Translations under genes and position numbers: made by a program
Assembly (NCBI RefSeq): GCF_900104475.1
Contig: NZ_FNJR01000009.1
Location: 81,697 to 145,696, forward strand
Length of the DNA stretch: 64,000 nucleotides
Reading direction: 5' to 3'
Source: Actinopolyspora xinjiangensis
Lineage (GTDB): Bacteria; Actinomycetota; Actinomycetes; Mycobacteriales; Pseudonocardiaceae
The notes under the pieces: model-generated
The model's database searches: none
The model's input: only the letters and a program-made list of their open reading frames with translations
What the model was told of the DNA's origin: nothing
Shown here: positions 1-9,304 of the stretch, piece after piece
Layout: the number at the start of each line of letters is the position of its first letter
Numbering within the stretch: the first letter of the stretch is position 1

Positions 1-140
1 GCCAACGCTGCGAGATCGCCACCACCAACACCTGGGGACAAGCCCTCTACCTCGGCAACTACCTGCTCACCATCCTCGGCTGGGCCTTCGCCACCTTGTT
101 CGTCGCCGGATACACCGGCCTCATCCGCAAAAACACCTGA
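1..140 (+). CDS. C-terminal end of a membrane protein (partial)
   Basis: The window opens inside this gene. Reading codons from base 3 gives 45 residues ending at TGA 138-140. The tail holds one clear hydrophobic segment (YLLTILGWAFATLFVAGY) followed by a short basic end (LIRKNT), so it is probably the last membrane helix of a larger protein. I do not recognise the family. It lies on the far side of the Nudix gene from the integrase remnant, so it probably belongs to the same integrative element that extends to the left of the window. Confidence 0.5.
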   Translation, partial: QRCEIATTNTWGQALYLGNYLLTILGWAFATLFVAGYTGLIRKNT

Positions 141-310
141 CCAACTACTGCGCGGCAAAACGGGCACAGCCAGATACAGAAACCACGCGACGGACGCGAC
201 AACCCACCCCACAGGAAGTCGCCCGGCAAAGAAATCCCCTACGAAGCCCCGACCTCACGAGAACACACCCCCAACCACCCACGACGCCGAACCGAACCGG
301 CGTGCGAGTA

Positions 311-382: not shown

Positions 383-415
383 GGATGAGTCGATCAGTGG
401 CCCATTCGGCGGTGG

Positions 416-886
416 TCAGCTGAGATACGGCTCGGAACGTTCCTGCAACGCGTGCTCGATGCGCATCCGCATCGTGGGGTGCATGGTCAGCGAATCCAGC
501 TCCGCGGGTTGGATCCAGTGCACGCGGCGGCTCTCACCGCTGGGCCGTAGTCGTCCTTCCACCGGTCGGGCGGTGAACACGATCGAGAACTCCTGGCGGA
601 CCTCGCCGTCGTCGTAGGCGATCACGTGTCGCGGGTCGGAGTAGATGCCGACGATGCCGGTGATCTCCACCGTCAGCCCGGTCTCCTCGGCAACCTCGCG
701 CAGGGCGGCTTGGCGGGTGGTCTCGCCGAGATCCTGCGCCCCGCCGGGCAGGGCCCACAGCTCGTTGTCGGTGCGCTCGATCAACAGCACACGGCCGGAC
801 TCGTCACGGACCACCACGGCCACCGCCACCACCAGACTGTTGACGGCCGGGGCCTGCGGATCGCCGTAGTAGTCCCGCTTGCTCAT
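416..886 (-). CDS. Nudix hydrolase
   Basis: 156 residues. The Nudix box is complete at about residues 49-71: G, five residues, E, seven residues, then REVAEETGL, which supplies the Mg-binding glutamates. Such enzymes cleave nucleoside diphosphate-X compounds; the substrate cannot be read from the sequence. Neighbours are a membrane-protein tail and an integrase remnant. The pSAM2 immunity factor Pif is also a Nudix-motif protein carried by an actinomycete integrative element, so an immunity or regulatory role in the element is possible; this is inference. The upstream 887-950 gap probably holds its promoter. Confidence 0.85.
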   Translation of the reverse strand: MSKRDYYGDPQAPAVNSLVVAVAVVVRDESGRVLLIERTDNELWALPGGAQDLGETTRQAALREVAEETGLTVEITGIVGIYSDPRHVIAYDDGEVRQEFSIVFTARPVEGRLRPSGESRRVHWIQPAELDSLTMHPTMRMRIEHALQERSEPYLS

Positions 887-950
887 GGTCCCTGCCTCTC
901 AGATCAACGCCGAAGCACCATCCAACACAGCACCTAGACAGTCTGGTCCG

Positions 951-1175
951 GACTACGTCTCACGACAGGGACAGCTTACCCGGGTGACTTCGCACGTGTT
1001 CCGCAAGACTGCGGCCACGGTGCCGGATGAGGCGGGGTTGAGTGCTCGCCGGATCGCCGATCAGCTGGGGCACTCGCGGCCGTCGCTGACTCAGGACGTG
1101 TACCTGGGGCGTAAGGCGGTCACCGAGGACACGGCCACAGCGCTGGAAACGGTCTTCGACAGCGAGTCAGAGTAG
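951..1175 (+). pseudogene. Tyrosine integrase, C-terminal remnant
   Basis: The last 65-70 residues match the catalytic end of pSAM2-type tyrosine recombinases. TSHVFRKTAATV gives the H-x-x-R pair, then comes IADQLGH, then QDVYLGRKAV with the nucleophilic tyrosine. The N-terminal arm-binding domain and the first catalytic arginine are missing; upstream sequence runs straight into the Nudix promoter region with no integrase homology. The gene therefore cannot make a working enzyme unless complemented. Its last 20 codons and 3' flank are duplicated at 5569. Homology starts at about 951-975; the left boundary is approximate. Confidence 0.8.
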
Positions 1176-1197
1176 TTCTGTGTGGGTAAAGTGTGGC

Positions 1198-1218
1198 AGT
1201 GATCTTGAACTGATCACT
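1198..1218 (+). terminator. Hairpin after the integrase remnant
   Basis: AGTGATC and GATCACT form a 7-bp stem around the loop TTGAACT, 23 bases past the integrase stop. There is no T-tract. In copy 2 the first stem base is G (5654), which still allows a G-U pair. It may be a terminator or an integrase or excisionase site; the sequence does not decide. Confidence 0.4.
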
Positions 1219-1242
1219 TAGCAACCCTCTGACCTGGCCTTT

Positions 1243-1280
1243 TGGTGGGCCGCCAGGGACTCGAACCCTGAACCCGTGGA
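1243..1280. other. Attachment site copy: 38 bp of the tRNA-Lys 3' end
   Basis: These 38 bases equal 5699-5736, the CCA end, T-arm and part of the anticodon stem of the intact tRNA-Lys gene. Integrases of this class recombine within the 3' half of a tRNA gene, so this is the expected att core. It lies right after an integrase tail, as the second copy does. Beyond base 1280 the tRNA sequence is lost, so this is an att remnant and not a tRNA gene. Confidence 0.8.
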
Positions 1281-1440
1281 GTAATGATCCATCGCTGTCA
1301 TCCGCTGTCGGCGAGGCTCGATCACTGTCGTGCGCTGTGACGGAACATCGATCAGCATATCCGTTGCGGGTGGGTGTCAGTCGTTGTCTGTCATCGTTTC
1401 GTACACGTAAAGTGCACTCATGATCTTGAGCTGACCGACA
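1281..1440. other. Possible integrase arm-binding region at the left end of the second element
   Basis: Short repeats of the type ATCGCTGTC, ATCCGCTGTC, ATCACTGTC and GTGCGCTGTG lie between 1290 and 1345, resembling arm-type site arrays beside att sites. At 1407-1434 the pattern GTAAAGTG, six bases, TGATCTTGAGCTGA copies, with the same spacing, the pattern at 1186-1213 (there TGATCTTGAACTGA). This marks the other flank of the att site. No gene is seen here. Confidence 0.5.
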
Positions 1441-2019
1441 GCTCGATCTCCACTCCGCGCAGAAAACACGGCCACTAACCGAGAGCCGCTCCAGTCCCCT
1501 CCCACATCCGGCACCCAGCCGCTTCCAACGGGTAAGCCGGGGAGTCAAGAGCAACCAGCCACGAACGTAACCCGGCATTACTCTTGGAGTCCCCAGGGCT
1601 CTCTTGACGCCCCGGTTTGGCCGCCTTCCTCCAACCGCGGACGTGAGAGAGGACTCACTGCTAGCTAGAGATTAGGGGACGGTCCTTCGCATTTTCTGTC
1701 GTCGTTGGTCAGTCATCGCCACACGTCGAGACAGAGGGCATAAGCGTTTTTTACATAACGATATTAGTGAACATTATCGTTGATTCCCGAAGACAAACAC
1801 CCCCAGAAAGATCAACATTAAATACTCAATCTCCAGTGAAACCATTAGCCTGAATGGCTCATCGTTTAGCACGACAGACAATCACTCTGTCAATATAAAA
1901 TAACGGATATCACATGTTATTTTAGTTTCATGCGCAACACTCGATCGAAGTATTTCCATCACAGGAAAAATTAGTAAATTAATCTTCCGCAAGGCAGGAA
2001 CAGTCAAAAGGAGCAACAA
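1441..2019. other. Non-coding stretch entering an A+T-rich island
   Basis: I see no gene. An imperfect inverted repeat pairs GGGGAGTCAAGAG (1539-1551) with CTCTTGACGCCCC (1601-1613). From about 1740 the composition becomes visibly A+T-rich. AACGATA (1757-1763) and TATCGTT (1775-1781) form a small inverted repeat that could be an operator or promoter element for the secreted-protein gene starting at 2020. Confidence 0.45.
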
Positions 2020-2480
2020 GTGCTTTTGCGTCGTATTGGACAAACACTCGTGGGGTTAACAGCTGCTACCCTTGTGGGAATAGCACCCACCGCCGTTGCT
2101 AATGCTACCCCCAGGATACTACTAATTCTTCTGATAACGCTAAAATTCCAGCTTGGATTGGAAGCGGAAACAACGACCTAAGCAATGGTTATTTTGTCAC
2201 GAATTTTTACGGGACAGATGCAACTATCAGCAATGTCAATAACAGCTACAGTAAAAGCGACGGAGCCACTGCACATATCAGGTTCGGATGGGAACGCGTA
2301 AACTCTGACGGTACTAATCCGCATGACCTTCGCTGGAGTTCCAGAACTTGGTATGTCGACTCTGGAGAGACAGTAACAGAAACCTTTACCCCTAACGCTC
2401 CAAGGCAAAATACCTGCATGCGTGGTGTTATGCACGATATAAACGCAGACTATGTATTTTCTACCAGGGTCGTTTGTTAA
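2020..2480 (+). pseudogene. Secreted protein of unknown family, frameshifted after the signal peptide
   Basis: GTG 2020 has a good ribosome site (AAAAGGAG) and encodes a signal peptide (MLLRRIGQTLVGLTAATLVG, then IAPTAVANA). Immediately after the cleavage region, at the run of five C bases at 2108-2112, the frame is lost. One extra C would restore it into a 120-residue reading frame that is Asn-, Ser- and Thr-rich, has two cysteines near the end, and stops at TAA 2478-2480. The whole protein would be about 153 residues. This is a pseudogene, a sequencing error or slippage-controlled expression. No family recognised. Base composition is far more A+T-rich than the backbone. Confidence 0.65.
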
Positions 2481-2492
2481 TATAATTTAAGC

Positions 2493-2528
2493 AGCAGTGG
2501 TGCTTTTTTTCAGGTGAGCACCACTGCT
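2493..2528 (+). terminator. Hairpin terminator
   Basis: AGCAGTGGTGCT (2493-2504) and AGCACCACTGCT (2517-2528) form a perfect 12-bp stem. The loop starts with a run of T. It lies 13 bases after the secreted-protein stop and 16 bases before the VanZ-like start. Confidence 0.6.
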
Positions 2529-2544
2529 TGCATAGTAATGCTGT

Positions 2545-3096
2545 ATGATCAAGGACATGTTGTCCATATTTGTCAAATCACTCATCACCCCGGCAACGAT
2601 AGCGATATTCATAATCATCCTTGCAATATCTCTCGTCTTTAGCTTTTTTTTGGCTCGATACAGCGTCGGATTTAAGGTTCCTCTTTATGTCAGCTCGGCG
2701 GCGCTTGCGTTTGTTTTTGCCGTAACTCTTTCTCCTTCCGGGGTCAACAGCGGTTCAGTAATTTGCGCGATTCATTTCCCATCAAACACCGGACTAGCAG
2801 ACCTTCCATCCATTACTGAGCAGTCGGCGAATTCTTTGATGCTTGCACCATTTGGTTTTTTTGCAGCGCTTTCTTTTAGAAAATGGTGGATTTCACCGCT
2901 TGCGCTGCCACTGATCCCTGCCATAATCGAGACGATGCAAATGCTGATTCCAGCCATAGGAAGAAGCTGCACTATCCAAGATGGATTCGACAATCTAACA
3001 GGAGGAATACTGGGAGCCACCTTCGGATTGCTTTTTCGTTTTCTTTTTTCGATTATTTACACCAACAAAAACAAGAACTTTGCCGAACAGGGCTGA
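2545..3096 (+). CDS. VanZ-like membrane protein
   Basis: 183 residues with four to five hydrophobic segments. The C-terminal half shows the VanZ-like pattern: a helix with NSLMLAPFGF, then PAIIETMQMLIPAIGRSC, a conserved Asp-Asn (DGFDNLTGG) and a last helix. VanZ-family proteins are membrane proteins; VanZ itself gives low-level teicoplanin resistance by an unclear route, and most relatives have no known role. Codon use is A+T-rich and unlike the chromosome, indicating recent transfer as element cargo. It follows the secreted-protein gene in the same direction but is separated from it by a hairpin. Confidence 0.75.
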   Translation: MIKDMLSIFVKSLITPATIAIFIIILAISLVFSFFLARYSVGFKVPLYVSSAALAFVFAVTLSPSGVNSGSVICAIHFPSNTGLADLPSITEQSANSLMLAPFGFFAALSFRKWWISPLALPLIPAIIETMQMLIPAIGRSCTIQDGFDNLTGGILGATFGLLFRFLFSIIYTNKNKNFAEQG

Positions 3097-3260
3097 AATA
3101 TACTTGTTTTTGCCGTGAACAGCTGGGTGGGTGGCTACGTCGCGGGCACGGTGGCGTATCCGTAGGAAGTGGCCGGGTGAGGGCGTCCGTAGCGGGACCG
3201 GATTTCGCGGGAACACGTGCCCGACCGGCCCCGGTGCCAGGTCGTACCGATGTGCCGAGG

Positions 3261-3341
3261 GTGAGCTTCCTCGGCGGCCTCTGCCGTGGTGTCGGGCCGC
3301 CCTTGATGAAGAAAAGAAACTCTACACACACGCACACTGGG
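3261..3341. repeat. Duplicated 3'-flank repeat, copy B
   Basis: Partner of 311-382. The shared core is CTTGATGAAGAAAA, then AAACTCTACACAC, then GCACAC. It ends about 22 bases past the stop of the leftward HTH-FGE gene. Confidence 0.6.
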
Positions 3342-3362
3342 GCTGCGCGTGTGGCTCGTTGT

Positions 3363-4317
3363 TTACCTGTTCAACAGACGTTCCATCGCTTCGGCTGAGA
3401 CCGCGCATCGGAAACCTGTGTCGTCGTCGCACATCGTCTCGGCCGCGTCGTTGAACGAAGACGGCGTGGCACGGTCGAACGGGCTCGTCCAGGCGCCACC
3501 GCGTAGTTCTCGACGGCCTGGCCGGGACGCGGTGGAGAACCACTCCCACACGTTGCCGCACATGTCGTAGGTGCCGTATGGGCTCACGCCGCTTTGGTAA
3601 CGGCCAACGGGTGTAGTGGCGCCTATACCGCTTTCCCGCACGTTGCATTTGGCCGGGGTCGGCTGATCGCCCCATGGGTAGACCATGCCACGGGTACCGC
3701 GGGCTGCTTTCTCCCACTGCTGCGCCGTCGGAAGTTCCTTGCCCGCCCAATGCGCGTAGGCGGTGGCATCCTTCCAAGTCACGAACACCACGGGATGGTC
3801 GGCGAGTTCGGCGGGATACTGCTCCTCCGGCCAGTGCCCCGGTGGGGTGTGTCCGGTCGCTGCGGTGAACCGCGCGTATTCGGCGTTGCTGACCGGGTGT
3901 ACGTCGATGTAGTAGGCCGGAACCCAGACCGGCTCGTTACTCGGTCCGGAGAGAAACACGCTGGCATCGACCTTGACCATCAGGCTGCCGTCGCTCGGGT
4001 GGCGTACCTGGGTGCTGCCGATCAGCTCGGTCGCTTCGGAGGAGCCACCAACCAAGCGCCCATCGGTGAGGTACTTGAATCGGGCTTGCGTGTCGGAGTC
4101 GCTGCCGTGTCGGAGTCGCTGCGTTGCAGGCAGGTGTCCAGCGCTGCTTGGTTCACTGGACGTGGGGTGACGTTCTCCCCCGCTGCTTCTCACTTCGAGA
4201 TCATTCGTTCGTTGACGCCAAGAGAGCGGCGAATTCCCGAAGGCTCATCCGCATGGCGTTACGTAGCGCGCGGACCTCGATTCCCGTCCACTGCTGAACT
4301 GTCGCCAATTGCCGCAT
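3363..4317 (-). pseudogene. HTH-FGE-sulfatase (SUMF1/EgtB/PvdO-like) fusion gene, N-terminus broken
   Basis: The intact part (3363 to about 4193) encodes an FGE/SUMF1-like domain: FLSGPSNEPVWVPAYYIDVH, HPVVFVTWKDA, ELPTAQQWEKAARGTRG, VYPWG, ESGIGATTPVGRYQSG, DMCGNVWEW and a GFRC end. Upstream, from ATG 4317, another frame gives MRQLATVQQWTG then EVRALRNAMRMSLREFAALL, the start of an XRE-type HTH. After a frame change come RMISK, a TGA where relatives have Trp, then EAAGENVTPRPVNQAALDTC. So the HTH and linker are split over three frames and only the catalytic-type domain remains open. The usual two-cysteine catalytic centre of true FGE is not obvious. Confidence 0.75.
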
Positions 4318-4347
4318 CTCCCCTGTGCCGCTGTTCTACAGGGGAGA
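4317..4347 (-). promoter_or_regulatory. Inverted repeat at the start of the HTH-FGE gene
   Basis: TCTCCCCTGT (4317-4326) and ACAGGGGAGA (4338-4347) are perfect 10-base arms around an 11-base centre. The inner arm supplies the ribosome site (AGGGGAG) just before ATG 4317. It could be an operator for the HTH protein itself or an RNA hairpin masking the ribosome site. Confidence 0.5.
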
Positions 4348-4368
4348 GTAACGGCTCCATCCCTCGCG

Positions 4369-5145
4369 TCACACCTGTTCAGGTGGGATATCGGTGTAAA
4401 GTTCGCGGAGTTCGTGAATCGCCTTGTGGTCCGTGTTCCACTCGACGCCTTCGATCGACGCGATCGGCCGAACTCCGGTGGCCGCGTTGGTCGCGAAGGC
4501 AGCTTCCATGTTCGCGAGGTCGGCGAGGGTCACGGGCTCGGTGGTGATGGGCTTGTCGAGAGCCTGGTTGATCAGGCGCATGGTGGTACCGGGGAGCATC
4601 TCGGACCGTGGCCAGATGGTCTGTCCGTCACGGATGAATCCGATGTTCGACGTCGCGATTTCGGAGATCGTCCCGTCCGGGTTGAGGAACAACACATCGT
4701 CGAAACCTTCGCGCTGCGCGGTCCGCCGGTGCCGCATCGCGCCGTAAAGCCCGACGTGCTTCACCTTCGGCTCCTCGCGGGAGTACGAAGCTGCTTGCAA
4801 CCGCCAGGGGCTCGGCTCTCCACGGCTGGCTTCGCGGGCGGTCACGAGCACGTGGGGCTCGGCATCGGAGCCGATCGTTCCCAGATTTAGGGAGGGATCG
4901 AAGACGGTCACTCGCGCCACGGTCCGCTCCTCTCCGGTGAGCATGTTTCGGACGTAGGCGCGTACCCGGTCGGTGTCGAGCTCGGTATTGAACAAACGGC
5001 GGCAGTCATGTGCCAGACGTTGCAGGTGGAGCGACAGACCGCGCACCTTGCCACTTTCGACCAGCATCGATGTGAAGTGCCCGTAGTTCGTCAACGCAAG
5101 GGTCTTGATCTGGTCAAGCGTGGCGGGGGTGCCGTTCAGTTCCAT
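4369..5145 (-). CDS. Aminotransferase class IV (PLP-dependent)
   Basis: The start at 5145 (MELNGTPATL) gives 258 residues; an upstream ATG at 5193 would add 16 residues without homology. It belongs to the branched-chain aminotransferase / aminodeoxychorismate lyase fold class: the likely PLP lysine is in VKHVG near residue 129, followed by RHRRTAQREGFDD and a TISEIATSNIGF motif that positions the cofactor. The substrate is unknown. It lies upstream of the broken HTH-FGE gene on the same strand; the pair looks like element cargo. Three AAGTTCAG repeats precede it. Confidence 0.8.
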   Translation of the reverse strand: MELNGTPATLDQIKTLALTNYGHFTSMLVESGKVRGLSLHLQRLAHDCRRLFNTELDTDRVRAYVRNMLTGEERTVARVTVFDPSLNLGTIGSDAEPHVLVTAREASRGEPSPWRLQAASYSREEPKVKHVGLYGAMRHRRTAQREGFDDVLFLNPDGTISEIATSNIGFIRDGQTIWPRSEMLPGTTMRLINQALDKPITTEPVTLADLANMEAAFATNAATGVRPIASIEGVEWNTDHKAIHELRELYTDIPPEQV

Positions 5146-5195
5146 ACCGGCCACCTTCCCACTCCACGTGCGCTGACTGAAGCTGTGCTGCACCG

Positions 5196-5239
5196 AAGTT
5201 CAGGGAAAGTTCAGCACGTCAGATTCGGCAGAAGTTCAG
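5196..5239 (-). promoter_or_regulatory. Triple direct repeat upstream of the aminotransferase
   Basis: AAGTTCAG occurs at 5196-5203, 5207-5214 and 5232-5239. The first two are one helical turn apart. They lie 50-95 bases upstream of the aminotransferase start and downstream of the truncated GntR gene, so they may be a regulator-binding array. Function is inferred from position only. Confidence 0.4.
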
Positions 5240-5331
5240 TGGAGAGGTGGGGGCAGGCCAGTACCCAACGGGCGGTTCATGCCGCAATCTTGAACCATGA
5301 CAGCGCGACGGAAAGAACTCCGGGAGCGGGC

Positions 5332-5571
5332 TCACCGCTGTTGTTCCAGGGCGTCCAAGCGGGCGGACAGGTCCGCGACCGTGGCTTGTAACTCGGCGAC
5401 AGCCGAAGCGAGGTCCTTGCTCTTCGGTACGGGTTCGGGGACCGAGTTCACGAACGTCCCCACGGAGGGTGTGGTCGTGATCCAACCGTCCTCCTCCAGG
5501 GCGCTCAACGCCTTCTGTGCGGTCCCGAGTGCGACCTCGTACTTCTCGGCGACTCCGCGGTTGCTGGGAAG
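5332..5571 (-). pseudogene. GntR-family regulator, N-terminally truncated
   Basis: The reading frame runs from the repeat junction at about 5571 down to TGA 5332-5334. It encodes LPSNRGVAEKYEVALGTAQK, then ALSALEEDGWITTTPSVGTF, the second half of a GntR winged helix, followed by a coiled-coil-like tail ending ARLDALEQQR. The first 30 or so residues, including the first helices of the DNA-binding domain, are gone exactly where the 168-bp direct repeat begins (5569). Recombination that placed the integrase tail here must have removed them. Confidence 0.75.
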
Positions 5572-5736
5572 GCGGTCACCGAGGACACGGCCACAGCGCT
5601 GGAAACGGTCTTCGACAGCGAGTCAGAGTAGTTCTGTGTGGGTAAAGTGTGGCGGTGATCTTGAACTGATCACTTAGCAACCCTCTGACCTGGCCTTTTG
5701 GTGGGCCGCCAGGGACTCGAACCCTGAACCCGTGGA
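5569..5736. repeat. 168-bp direct repeat, copy 2 (integrase tail plus att)
   Basis: Second copy of 1113-1280. Bases 5569-5631 encode the last 20 integrase residues (KAVTEDTATALETVFDSESE) and stop; the rest is its 3' flank and the 3' half of the tRNA-Lys gene. Here the repeat continues into the complete tRNA, so this is the end attached to the chromosome. Confidence 0.9.
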
Positions 5737-5774
5737 TTAAAAGTCCACTGCTCTGCCCATTGAGCTAACGGCCC
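5699..5774 (-). tRNA. tRNA-Lys (UUU), CCA encoded
   Basis: Read leftward from 5774. The acceptor strand GGGCCGT pairs with GCGGCCC before discriminator A and an encoded CCA (5699-5701). The anticodon arm GTGGACTTTTAATCCAC places TTT as anticodon, and the T-loop is GGTTCGAGTCC. The 73-nt body fits a normal cloverleaf. Its 3' end is the attachment site used by the integrative elements on the left; the gene remains intact because integration restores it. Confidence 0.95.
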
Positions 5775-5849
5775 GCAAGCTACAGGCTACAGGGAACCGT
5801 TGATCTTGTGCAGCGCCGGGCGGGAGTGTTTCCGCCCGGCGAGCCGACA

Positions 5850-6806
5850 TCAACCGCGTGCGAGCGCGGGTTCCGGTTCCACGACCTTCCTGCCACCGGC
5901 GCGTTCGTTCCAGCCGAGTCCGGTGATCATCACGACCAGCAGCACGAAACCCACCCATTGGGTGAGAGTCAGCGTCTCCCCCAACACGCCGACTCCGACG
6001 ATGGCCGCGGTGGCGGGAAACGAGAGCTCCGCCAGTGTGGCCCGGGCCGCCGGGGTGGTACGCAGCCCGAGGTAGTACAAGCTGAGTGCCAGCAGCCCCG
6101 GAATCAACGCGAGCAGCAGCAGGCCGCCGATGTTGGCCCAGCCCACCGCCAGTGCGTCACCGATGTTCGAGAGCCCTTCGGGGATCGAACCGTCCCGGAG
6201 CAACAGCACCAGCGCCACCGTGGGCAGCCCGATCGAGTAGCGCAACGTGGTCACCTCCACGGGAGCGAGTTCACGGCTGAGCACTCGGCCGAACACCGTT
6301 CCGGCGGCCCACAGGGCGGCGGCACCCAGCGCCAGCAGCGCGGGAACCAACCGCGAGACGCTCACCTGCACGGGGTCCGGGAACGCCAGCAGCCACGCAC
6401 CCGCCAACGCGGGCAGCGCGAAGGCCAGGTATCCGCGGCGGAACCCCTCTCGCAGCAGCAGGAACGAGGCCAACGCGGCGAACACCGGCTGCAGTTTCTG
6501 CAGCACCACGGGAGTGACCGGATCGCCGTAGCCGAACGCGGCGGTGAACAATATCGTGGCCAGCGCGGAGGTACCGGCCCCCACTACCAGTGCCGCCGCC
6601 CGGTGCCGACCCCGAGACCGAGCGAAGGCGCGCCACGCGCGGGGCAGCAGCGGCACCAGCAGCAGTGTGACGATCAGGTGCTCGCACAGCACCACGGTCG
6701 TGCTCGGCAGGCTGTTCGCCAGCGGCATCCGCCACAGTGCGTCGGTCCCCCACATCGCTGTGGCGATCGCGACCAACCAGGTACGGTCGCGCCCCGAATC
6801 AGTCAT
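5850..6806 (-). CDS. EamA/DMT-family transporter
   Basis: 318 residues, almost entirely hydrophobic, with about ten membrane helices arranged as two homologous halves of five, as in EamA (drug/metabolite) transporters. Features such as LQKLQPVFAALASFLLLREG and the second-half LAELSFPATAAIVGVGVLGE are the typical helix-loop glutamate patterns of each half. Probably exports a small metabolite; substrate not predictable. It stands alone, read toward the tRNA-Lys gene, and marks the first chromosomal gene beyond the integration site. It ends with a short cytoplasmic tail. Confidence 0.85.
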   Translation of the reverse strand: MTDSGRDRTWLVAIATAMWGTDALWRMPLANSLPSTTVVLCEHLIVTLLLVPLLPRAWRAFARSRGRHRAAALVVGAGTSALATILFTAAFGYGDPVTPVVLQKLQPVFAALASFLLLREGFRRGYLAFALPALAGAWLLAFPDPVQVSVSRLVPALLALGAAALWAAGTVFGRVLSRELAPVEVTTLRYSIGLPTVALVLLLRDGSIPEGLSNIGDALAVGWANIGGLLLLALIPGLLALSLYYLGLRTTPAARATLAELSFPATAAIVGVGVLGETLTLTQWVGFVLLVVMITGLGWNERAGGRKVVEPEPALARG

Positions 6807-6952
6807 TCGATCAACATAGCGCGATCGCGCAGCGTTACGCGCCCTCGACGGGAACGATCCTCGTCACACTCGCCCCGGCCACGGACACGCCACTTCACCC
6901 GTCAGAGCGAAGGATCACCAACCGGCCCGGCGAATCGCGTAGAACTCGGCGT

Positions 6953-7528
6953 ATGCGATCCGCGACGAGCGCCGTGCTGACCGTACTCGCCCTGGCACTC
7001 GCGGCCCCCACCGCCGCACATGCCGAACCCGTCTCCGGTGACAGCTCCGACCGCGCGGTGGCACACGGGGTCTTCACCTCGTACCACGAAACGGCGGAAG
7101 CGATCACCTACGCGCCGGAGCCGGTGCCACCGGGGGCACGGATGGGTGTGTTCGCGAACGGCCTGCCGGACGAGCGCACCGCCGTGGTGGCTGTGGTCGA
7201 GGGGCTGCGGCCGAACCGCGCCTACGGTGCTCACGTACACACCCGTCCGTGCGGCCCCGAGGGCTCGGACGCCGGTCCGCACTTCCAGCAGGTTCCCGCT
7301 CCGGAAGGCGTCTCCGGCGATCCGACCTACGCCAACCCGCACAACGAGGTGTGGCTGGACTTCCGCACCGACGCGTCCGGTAACGCCGTGACCGGCGCCG
7401 TCGGTGACTGGACCCCGCACCGGGGCGAAGCGTCCTCGGTGGTGATCCACGAGCACCGCACCCGCACCTCCCCCGGAGTCGCCGGCGAGGCCGGTGCGCG
7501 GTTGGCCTGCCTGAACGTGCCGTTCTGA
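6953..7528 (+). CDS. sodC: Secreted Cu/Zn superoxide dismutase-like protein
   Basis: 191 residues from ATG 6953, which starts a clean signal peptide (MRSATSAVLTVLALALAAPT, AAHA) cleaved near residue 24; longer upstream starts would spoil it. The mature domain keeps SOD-type metal ligands: GAHVHTRPC (two His), GPHF, NPHNEVWLDF and VVIHEH, and two cysteines that may form the usual disulfide. The role would be removal of superoxide outside the cell. The loops differ from well-studied SodC, so catalysis is likely but not certain. Single gene, no obvious operon. Confidence 0.75.
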   Translation: MRSATSAVLTVLALALAAPTAAHAEPVSGDSSDRAVAHGVFTSYHETAEAITYAPEPVPPGARMGVFANGLPDERTAVVAVVEGLRPNRAYGAHVHTRPCGPEGSDAGPHFQQVPAPEGVSGDPTYANPHNEVWLDFRTDASGNAVTGAVGDWTPHRGEASSVVIHEHRTRTSPGVAGEAGARLACLNVPF

Positions 7529-7703
7529 ACGGTTCCCCGCACTTCCCGGAACGGTTCACCCGGACCGGCCGGCTCGGCCCCTTCGGACGAATCGATCGTG
7601 GGCCCGCTGGCCGGCCGCGTGTGTGCGTCCGGAGGCGCGCACGCCACCCCGGCCCTCCGCCGCCCGGTACTGATCGGTGGGAACCGGCACCGATAATGGA
7701 GGC

Positions 7704-8849
7704 ATGTCGCTCGCGTCAGCCACCGCACCGCTTAGGATCGGGCCGTATTCGGTCGATCCACCCGTGGTACTCGCTCCGATGGCGGGCATTACGAATCTCG
7801 CCTTCCGCAAGTTGTGCCGGGAGTACGGTAGTCGTGACTCGCTCTACGTCTGCGAGATGATCACCGCCCGCGCGGTCGTGGAGCGCAACGCGAAAACGCT
7901 GCGGATGATGAGCTTCGACGAGGGGGAGCACCCGCGTTCGATGCAGCTCTACGGCGTGGATCCGGCGACCATGGCCGAAGCGGTCAAGATCATCGTCGGG
8001 GAAGGCTGGGCCGACCACATCGACACGAACTGGGGTTGTCCGGTCGCCAAGGTGACCCGAAAGGGCGGCGGAGCGGCCCTGCCCTACAAGCGCAAGCTGT
8101 TCGGGGAGATCATCTCCGCCGCCGTCCGGGCCGCCGAGCCCGCCGGTGTCCCGGTCACGGCGAAGTTCCGGGTCGGGATCGACGACGAGCACACCACCCA
8201 CCTGGACGCGGGTCGTATCGCGGAGGAGGCCGGGGCGGCGGCCGTGGCTCTCCACGGCCGAACGGCTGCCCAGCGGTACTCCGGGACCGCGGACTGGGAG
8301 CGGATCGCCCGGTTGAAGGAAACCGTGCGCGGCATCCCGGTGCTGGGCAACGGTGACATCTTCCGGGCGGCGGACGCCCGGAAAATGATGGACAGCACCG
8401 GCTGTGACGGTGTCGTCGTCGGACGCGGCTGCCTGGGGAGGCCGTGGCTGTTCCGGGAACTGCACGCCGAGCTGCGGGGCGAGCCGATCCCCGAACCTCC
8501 CGATCTCGGCGAGATCCGGGGAATCGTCTACCGGCACGCCTGTCTGCTGACCGAGCTCATGGGGGAGGAGAAGGCGCTGCGTGACCTGCGCAAGCACATG
8601 TCGTGGTACTTCATGGGCTTCCCCGTGGGCTCGGAGCTCCGGCGCAGGCTCGGCGTGGTCACCACCCTCGACGAGCTGGCAGGGCTGTTGGATCAGCTCG
8701 ATCCGGAGGTTCCCTTCCCCGCCGAGGCGGAGGGACCGCGCGGTAGGCAGGGTTCCCCGGGCAAGGTGGCGTTGCCCGAGGGATGGCTGGACGACCCGGA
8801 GGACAACTCGGTTCCGGTCGGCGCGGACATGGACCACAGCGGGGGTTGA
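7704..8849 (+). CDS. dusB: tRNA-dihydrouridine synthase
   Basis: 381 residues from ATG 7704, preceded by TGGAGG. FMN enzyme that reduces uridine in the tRNA D-loop. Seen: an N-terminal PVVLAPMAGITNLAFRKLC motif, NWGCPVAKVTRKGGGAAL with the catalytic cysteine, ALHGRTAAQRY, and GNGDIFRAADA with VVGRGCLGRPWLF for the flavin phosphate. Length is normal for DusB/Nifr3. The TGA stop overlaps the TTG start of the lipoprotein gene, indicating translational coupling. The Mycobacterium counterpart (Rv0823c) also sits next to an LCP gene and phoU. Confidence 0.93.
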   Translation: MSLASATAPLRIGPYSVDPPVVLAPMAGITNLAFRKLCREYGSRDSLYVCEMITARAVVERNAKTLRMMSFDEGEHPRSMQLYGVDPATMAEAVKIIVGEGWADHIDTNWGCPVAKVTRKGGGAALPYKRKLFGEIISAAVRAAEPAGVPVTAKFRVGIDDEHTTHLDAGRIAEEAGAAAVALHGRTAAQRYSGTADWERIARLKETVRGIPVLGNGDIFRAADARKMMDSTGCDGVVVGRGCLGRPWLFRELHAELRGEPIPEPPDLGEIRGIVYRHACLLTELMGEEKALRDLRKHMSWYFMGFPVGSELRRRLGVVTTLDELAGLLDQLDPEVPFPAEAEGPRGRQGSPGKVALPEGWLDDPEDNSVPVGADMDHSGG

Positions 8850-9304
8850 TCCGCCCACGTCGCGGCTTGGCGCCGCTCGTCTGCTCGCTGTCACTGCCGG
8901 TGCTGTTCGGCTGCCTGGCCGGGGACCGGCCCGTCGGCACGTCGTACTCGTGGGAGGCGGGCCCCGTTCGCTCGGTCACGGCCTACTTCAGGGCCAACAA
9001 CGCGGCGGCCCGACTCGGTCCGGAGGAGCAGCGAGTCTTCCTGCGCCGTACCCAGCACCCCGACTACCGTGACTCGTCTTGCTCACTGGACGGGATGACG
9101 GTCACGGCGGAACCCGCACCGGCGACCCTGCGCCCCGACGGTGAGTTCACCGTGGCAGGCGATCGGCCACGGGGAAGTGTGTGGGTCATCGGCGTGGAGG
9201 TCACGGTACGCCGGAACGGGGCGATCGTCGGTAGGCAACTCGGTTCACAACACCTGGTCAGGCTCGGTGGTCAGTGGTACGGCTTCGCGCCCTGCCCCCG
9301 TTGA
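8846..9304 (+). CDS. Putative lipoprotein
   Basis: TTG 8846 overlaps the dusB stop and yields a 152-residue protein. It begins RPRRGLAPLVCSLSLPVLFGC, a basic stretch, hydrophobic core and lipobox (LFGC) with the lipidated cysteine near residue 24. The mature part is small and mixed, with two further cysteines (SSCSLDG and APCPR) that could form a disulfide. The family is not recognised. TTG 8867 is an alternative start that keeps the lipobox. Likely a cell-surface protein. Confidence 0.65.
   Translation: MIRPRRGLAPLVCSLSLPVLFGCLAGDRPVGTSYSWEAGPVRSVTAYFRANNAAARLGPEEQRVFLRRTQHPDYRDSSCSLDGMTVTAEPAPATLRPDGEFTVAGDRPRGSVWVIGVEVTVRRNGAIVGRQLGSQHLVRLGGQWYGFAPCPR

Follow-up and report, generated by a model that had tools for sequence, protein, structure and literature searches.

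A probable accretion array of decayed pSAM2-type integrative elements at a tRNA-Lys gene of Actinopolyspora xinjiangensis

Introduction

Actinomycete integrative and conjugative elements (AICEs) are found in tandem at tRNA-Lys in Frankia, and the AICE pSAM2 has a Nudix protein, Pif (PMC3218068). In Streptomyces, AICE accretion has been described at tRNA-Arg, including decayed AICEs with cargo and a truncated integrase between direct repeats (PMC9513070). The definition of a cis-mobilizable element (CIME) and a three-step model of accretion come from PMC5704250. Here, we describe a locus at the tRNA-Lys(TTT) gene of Actinopolyspora xinjiangensis, located in a stretch of 64,000 nt (contig NZ_FNJR01000009.1, positions 81,697 to 145,696), referred to as the window. 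Beside the tRNA gene lies a 4456-bp block, element B, and to the left of it a second set of remains, remnant A. Very likely, decayed AICEs of the pSAM2 type have piled up at the 3' end of the tRNA gene, forming an accretion array in which element B is in effect a CIME.

The genome is a draft assembly of 5.04 Mb in 33 contigs, and the window lies on contig C16. We compare it with nine further Actinopolyspora genomes (G001 to G009, where G005 corresponds to A. righensis DSM 45501 and G008 to A. alba DSM 45004), i.e. ten genus genomes including its own. A literature search on integrative and conjugative elements of Actinopolyspora and on microhomology in AICEs returned nothing related, which is no claim that such reports are absent from print.

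Results

Anatomy of the tRNA-Lys locus

A 168-bp segment is present twice in the window (Table 1), with a start-to-start distance of 4456 bp and a single mismatch (offset 85; window 1198 and 5654). Its length and identity exclude a chance origin. Each copy starts on the left with the final 63 nt of an integrase gene, continues through a 67-bp spacer and ends with the 38 nt at the 3' end of a tRNA gene. According to ARAGORN, the tRNA-Lys(TTT) gene on the minus strand is the sole tRNA in the window. It is whole only at the right copy, where its 3' part forms the right attachment (att) core of element B (5699-5736, 38 bp); the tRNA part of the left copy is limited to the 3' 38 nt. The duplication, its spacing and the whole tRNA at the right copy only had been claimed in a preliminary description of the stretch, and the comparison of coordinates bears them out. 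The same description held that both integrases are cut at different points; we find the left piece to begin near 984 and the right piece at 5569. The duplicated tails do encode integrase, and the repeat was not seen without element DNA in any of the ten genus genomes.

Table 1. Features of the two elements and of the tRNA-Lys target, in window coordinates.
Feature	Position	Strand	Evidence
Remnant A: end of large gene related to the 767-aa gene of the G002 AICE	1..143	+	tblastn 82% over 44 aa (window 3-134); DNA 88% over 140 nt
Remnant A: Nudix hydrolase gene, 156 aa, open	416..886	-	Pfam NUDIX 80.1 bits; 93% nt identity to G003 copy
Remnant A: integrase tail, mosaic, recombination point near 1081	984..1175	+	62 aa at 77% to the 391-aa integrase of A. 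alba (G008)
Left copy of 168-bp repeat	1113..1280	+	
Putative Int arm site, P side, TAAAGTG-N6-TGATCTTG	1187..1207	+	exact match
Left att core, tRNA-Lys 3' 38 nt	1243..1280	-	
Element B: left end (P' arm), conserved in G001, G004, G008	1281..1430	+	91-93% over 148-244 nt
Putative Int arm site, P' side	1408..1428	+	exact match
Element B: VanZ-like gene, low-GC stretch	2545..3096	+	Pfam VanZ 40.6 bits
Element B: HTH-SUMF1 (FGE-sulfatase) gene, broken, three frames	3363..4317	-	tblastn frames -3, -1, -2; Pfam FGE-sulfatase 137.6 bits
Element B: class IV aminotransferase gene, 274 aa, open	4369..5193	-	Pfam Aminotran_4 137.7 bits; 95.6% aa identity to G002
Element B: GntR fragment without N-terminal 41 codons	5335..5580	-	94% to G002 GntR residues 42-124; GntR 27.1 bits
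Deletion junction AAGGCGGTC	5569..5577		found in both GntR and int of the G002 AICE
Right copy of 168-bp repeat: 63-nt integrase end, spacer, 38-nt core	5569..5736	+	
Putative Int arm site, P side, right copy	5643..5663	+	exact match
Whole tRNA-Lys(TTT), integration target; 3' 38 nt is the right att core	5699..5774	-	ARAGORN; Rfam tRNA 67.3 bits

Deletion junction and origin of element B

At the same tRNA-Lys, G002 has an AICE between two cores 13.1 kb (13103 bp) apart. It carries a 767-aa gene, HTH-SUMF1, class IV aminotransferase and GntR genes, an FtsK_SpoIIIE protein, a GGDEF protein, RepSA (487 bits) and an integrase that aligns over residues 1-382 with no stop. Window 3294-5586 is 91.3% identical over 2299 nt to positions 6795-9075 of G002. 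In the window the GntR gene reaches the 9-bp sequence AAGGCGGTC and then reads on as integrase tail. Among the matches listed for the other nine of the ten genus genomes, none runs through this GntR-integrase junction, and those in G001, G002, G004 and G008 stop there. A single deletion between the 9-bp copies of AAGGCGGTC explains the loss of the transfer, replication and integrase genes of B. The left edge of the repeat lies exactly at 5569 because of this microhomology deletion and is not an element end, while its right edge is set by the att core within the tRNA.

The cargo block of B is also present in G001 (contig C4) at 92% identity. For the tail, tRNA and flank (window 5569-6302) the identity to G002 is 78.5% over 741 nt (Fisher 6e-19 against the cargo), and for the chromosomal flank alone it is 78.0% over 1032 nt. 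Cargo at 91-92% against a flank at 78% shows that the cargo of B moved horizontally. The aminotransferase gene of B is conserved, with a ratio of nonsynonymous to synonymous rates (dN/dS) of 0.09 against G002 and 0.16 against G001. The GC content is 0.41-0.51 in segments over 1501-3250, within B; at 2021-2480, in this low-GC part, a gene for a small secreted protein is seen by eye, apparently split over two frames.

Remnant A and the DNA to its left

The large gene of remnant A lies mostly left of the window, and the Nudix gene and an integrase tail complete the remnant. The Phage_integrase family of Pfam scores 24.2 bits (E 3e-5) on the 65-aa tail, under the curated cut-off of 27.1. In G003, the unit of Nudix gene and integrase tail adjoins the tRNA directly, without the 4456-bp block, and window 404-1284 is 89.7% identical to it over 887 nt. 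In both genomes the Nudix gene is followed by a common stretch and then by the integrase tail; the Nudix surroundings in G008, on contig C7 of G004 and on contig C19 of the genome itself diverge at the point where the window and G003 share this stretch. The state of G003 could mean either that B entered after the lineages split or that it was lost there through exact excision.

The integrase piece of A is a mosaic. Its first part (985-1080) is identical to the G008 integrase gene at 89/94 positions and to G003 at 75/96, and its second part (1081-1175) at 60/95 and 93/95, respectively. Outside the core, the tails of A and B differ at 1/130 positions and those of A and G003 at 11/130 (Fisher 0.005, treating sites as independent). 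The likeness of the A and B tails would then reflect recombination among integrase tails, probably gene conversion, the rival being a duplicated tail.

Between the A copies of the window and G003, the Nudix gene differs at 13/350 nonsynonymous and 19/118 synonymous sites (Fisher 2e-5). As an AICE remnant, A carries a Nudix-domain protein (NUDIX 80.1 bits) that may be comparable to Pif. A second Nudix gene, on contig C19 (L074:9354-9824), is about 97.6-97.7% identical to that of the window, closer than the G003 copy (93%), and G008 has a homologue upstream of GntR, at a contig end.

The preliminary description had suggested searching to the left for the rest of the first element and a second att copy. 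A third, older and diverged integrase tail is found about 1.9 kb left of the window (C16:79777-79839, 74% over 76 nt). The att copy was not found: queries with the tRNA-Lys and the core on C16:63001-90000 (E up to 0.01, 1,215 bases left out) match only the two copies of the window, and on C16:63001-82930 (1,215 bases left out) there is no left core for A besides the left copy of the window. A seems to be without a left att site, so that B alone has two.

The same tRNA gene across the genus

In all ten genomes tRNA-Lys(TTT) occupies this locus, and the next gene resembles the EamA gene of the window, a label that comes from Pfam on the window's copy only. Rfam at gathering thresholds gave nothing beyond the tRNA at four loci. 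The preliminary description had proposed related genomes as the place to look for att junctions, and cores, AICEs and arrays at the same tRNA are found there, with the same anatomy as in the window. Extra cores occur left of the tRNA in 8/10 genomes: its own, G001 (2), G002, G003, G004, G006 (2), G007 (2) and G008 (on another contig). For G005 and G009 there are only truncated integrases beside the tRNA within the approximately 20 kb looked at. Nine core-to-core intervals hold no full-length integrase match (4456 bp in the window; 1097 and 7311 in G001; 3608 in G003; 2495 in G004; 1016 and 4892 in G006; 3203 and 5687 in G007). In A. alba, RepSA (485 bits), an HTH_17 protein and a 391-aa full-length integrase lie next to the tRNA, and another contig has a core and cargo genes; the two contigs probably belong to one element.

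Attachment core and arm motif

The exact 37-nt core GGTGGGCCGCCAGGGACTCGAACCCTGAACCCGTGGA is found in 16 of the 21 att sites compared at tRNA-Lys loci; those with mismatches or small indels are G001a, G006a, G006b, G007a and G007b. Past the core, in the anticodon arm, the left att copies no longer agree and run into arms of at least four kinds. In G004 (L067:9940-10124), G008 (L068:3789-4070) and G001 (L069:7818-7863) the same or a similar P' arm and core end (about CCGTGGAGTAATGAT) is attached to another core sequence, as would result from a switch of integration specificity through recombination in the core.

A motif, TAAAGTG-N6-TGATCTTG, matches the window exactly at three positions (1187, 1408 and 5643), and with up to two mismatches 0.02 matches would be expected by chance. 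Across the core, the spacing between the P and P' sites is 221 bp in the window, 221 bp in G001 and 220 bp in G003 (the P site has two mismatches in G001 and G003). The motif is a putative arm site that would bind the integrase (Int). Beyond the elements, on the side of the tRNA that faces the chromosome, there is a two-mismatch copy at 5788-5808, and G003 has a three-mismatch copy in the same place.

Mobility of element B

A loss of 4456 bp would follow from Int action on the two cores or from RecA action on the 168-bp repeats. The genome has seven matches to the G008 integrase, remnant A among them. The full-length integrase on contig C30 was considered as a helper and is unlikely, with 43% identity and an element flanked by a 45-bp direct repeat that resembles the 3' end of another tRNA. 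Since this nearest full-length integrase is only 43% identical and its element has a different repeat, it is doubtful whether B is excised at present. The enzyme to excise B could come with a newly arriving AICE of this specificity.

The C30 element (L009; 347-391, 2737-2785, 12420-12464) is AICE-like, with a full-length integrase and a 45-bp direct repeat of another tRNA-like sequence. It also contains a decayed tRNA-Lys-type core inside and is possibly a fusion of two elements with different specificity.

A conserved noncoding block

The left parts of AICEs share a noncoding block of approximately 240 bp (L009:3490-3730, L039:18690-18912 and others), formed by a long GC-rich hairpin followed by a conserved tail of approximately 48 bp. 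The hairpin DNA of the C30 copy has a fold z-score of -8.2. A query with the tail matches 14 places in the fetched loci, nine of which were aligned; covariation is slight (2/88 pairs) and there is no Rfam match at the gathering threshold. Remnants of the block lie at 336-383 and 3294-3345 in the window, and the copy in B retains the tail and lacks the hairpin (z +0.95). It could be a single-strand origin, a transfer locus or a terminator.

Discussion

From the arrangement of the locus we infer the following order of events. A first AICE would have entered at the tRNA and shrunk to remnant A, i.e. the Nudix gene, the integrase tail and the att core. A second AICE with the same site specificity, B, would then have entered between A and the tRNA, giving the order A integrase tail, core, B left arm, B integrase, core and tRNA. 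One deletion at the AAGGCGGTC common to GntR and int would have removed the transfer and replication genes of B and most of its integrase gene, so that a 4456-bp block bounded on both sides by an att core is left, in effect a CIME. Gene conversion probably made the tails of A and B alike. That a second pSAM2-like element had used the same att site was already suggested in the preliminary description, and it is supported by the AICE genes found there in relatives, by A without B in G003 and by the cargo of B being closest to G002 and G001.

Several observations weigh against this history. A without B in G003 could also be a loss, and the mosaic integrase piece tells that the history of A was not simple. 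Independent arrival alone does not predict the near-identical tails of A and B; gene conversion has to be assumed in addition. With up to three mismatches allowed, the arm motif is missing at the integrase end of G008 and on the P' side of G002, so it marks some elements only. The genome itself yielded no integrase with this specificity, the best full-length match being that on C30 (43% identical). Finally, this is a draft assembly and the array is known from assembled contigs.

Alternatively, the common ancestor with G003 would already have had B, and the G003 lineage would have lost it through exact excision, so that the array is older than we propose. Exact excision would leave the arrangement seen in G003; the identity of the cargo to G002 and G001, well above that of the flank to G002, argues for a later transfer instead. 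We regard this as unlikely, and it would alter only the timing and not the nature of the locus.

It is also unlikely, although the substitution pattern of the Nudix gene is in line with it, that remnant A is a kept, working leftover. Its Pif-like Nudix gene would then have remained under purifying selection once the element was no longer mobile and guard the cell against related AICEs, while gene conversion among integrase tails would keep arm sites and cores uniform, and trapped blocks like B would be excisable by any later AICE of the same specificity. Against this, B entered despite A, if A is the older one, and the Nudix gene may be refreshed from another element (the C19 copy), in which case selection acted there.

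A further explanation is that B was never integrated by Int. In that case, an incoming AICE would have contributed a linear piece, from core to GntR, that joined the resident A-tRNA locus at two points: at the core through homologous recombination, and at the integrase tail of A through microhomology, making the right tail a duplicate of that of A. Both the 1/130 difference between the tails and the 9-bp microhomology at the junction are directly accounted for in this way. However, a sister copy of the locus would be required and two different kinds of joining would have to coincide, whereas tandem insertion by Int with a later internal deletion is the common pattern in the genus (extra cores in 8/10 genomes) and full-length B-type AICEs exist at the same tRNA (G002). 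We therefore find it very unlikely. A plain segmental duplication or assembly artefact without any mobile element, to which near-identical copies in a draft of 33 contigs might point, has next to no chance, and the plain duplication was rejected, as AICE cargo with relatives of its own lies between the copies, the left copy runs into an AICE left arm known in other species, and analogous arrays are present in independently assembled relatives.

With an accretion array in which B is a CIME, the accumulation and decay of AICEs at one tRNA throughout a genus can be followed base by base, through the att core, the microhomology deletion and the tail recombination. Cargo still flanked by att cores could be taken up by the next element, and small remnants such as these escape searches for transfer and replication genes.

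AICE accretion and decay are already described, and the locus fits the known pattern. Like pSAM2-type AICEs and the Frankia tandems, as far as treated in PMC3218068, it has a tRNA 3'-end target with direct attL/attR repeats (for element B), a tyrosine integrase beside att, tandem insertion, RepSA and FtsK-type genes in the intact relative, and Nudix and GntR as cargo or regulators. Unlike them, the window elements are remnants without transfer, replication or full-length integrase genes: only integrase tails lie next to att in the window, full-length ones being found in G002 and G008, and none of the seven window proteins scanned with Pfam is of the RepSA or FtsK/TraB type. By the definition in PMC5704250, B resembles a CIME in having lost its integration and transfer genes and kept both attL and attR, beside a remnant at the same site; it differs in that remnant A has no detectable left att and in that cis-mobilization of B is putative. 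With the decayed Streptomyces AICEs of PMC9513070, the locus shares cargo and a truncated integrase between direct repeats and the pile-up at one tRNA. Compared with what that account describes, the genus is another one, and here the deletion junction and the recombination point in the integrase tail are resolved.

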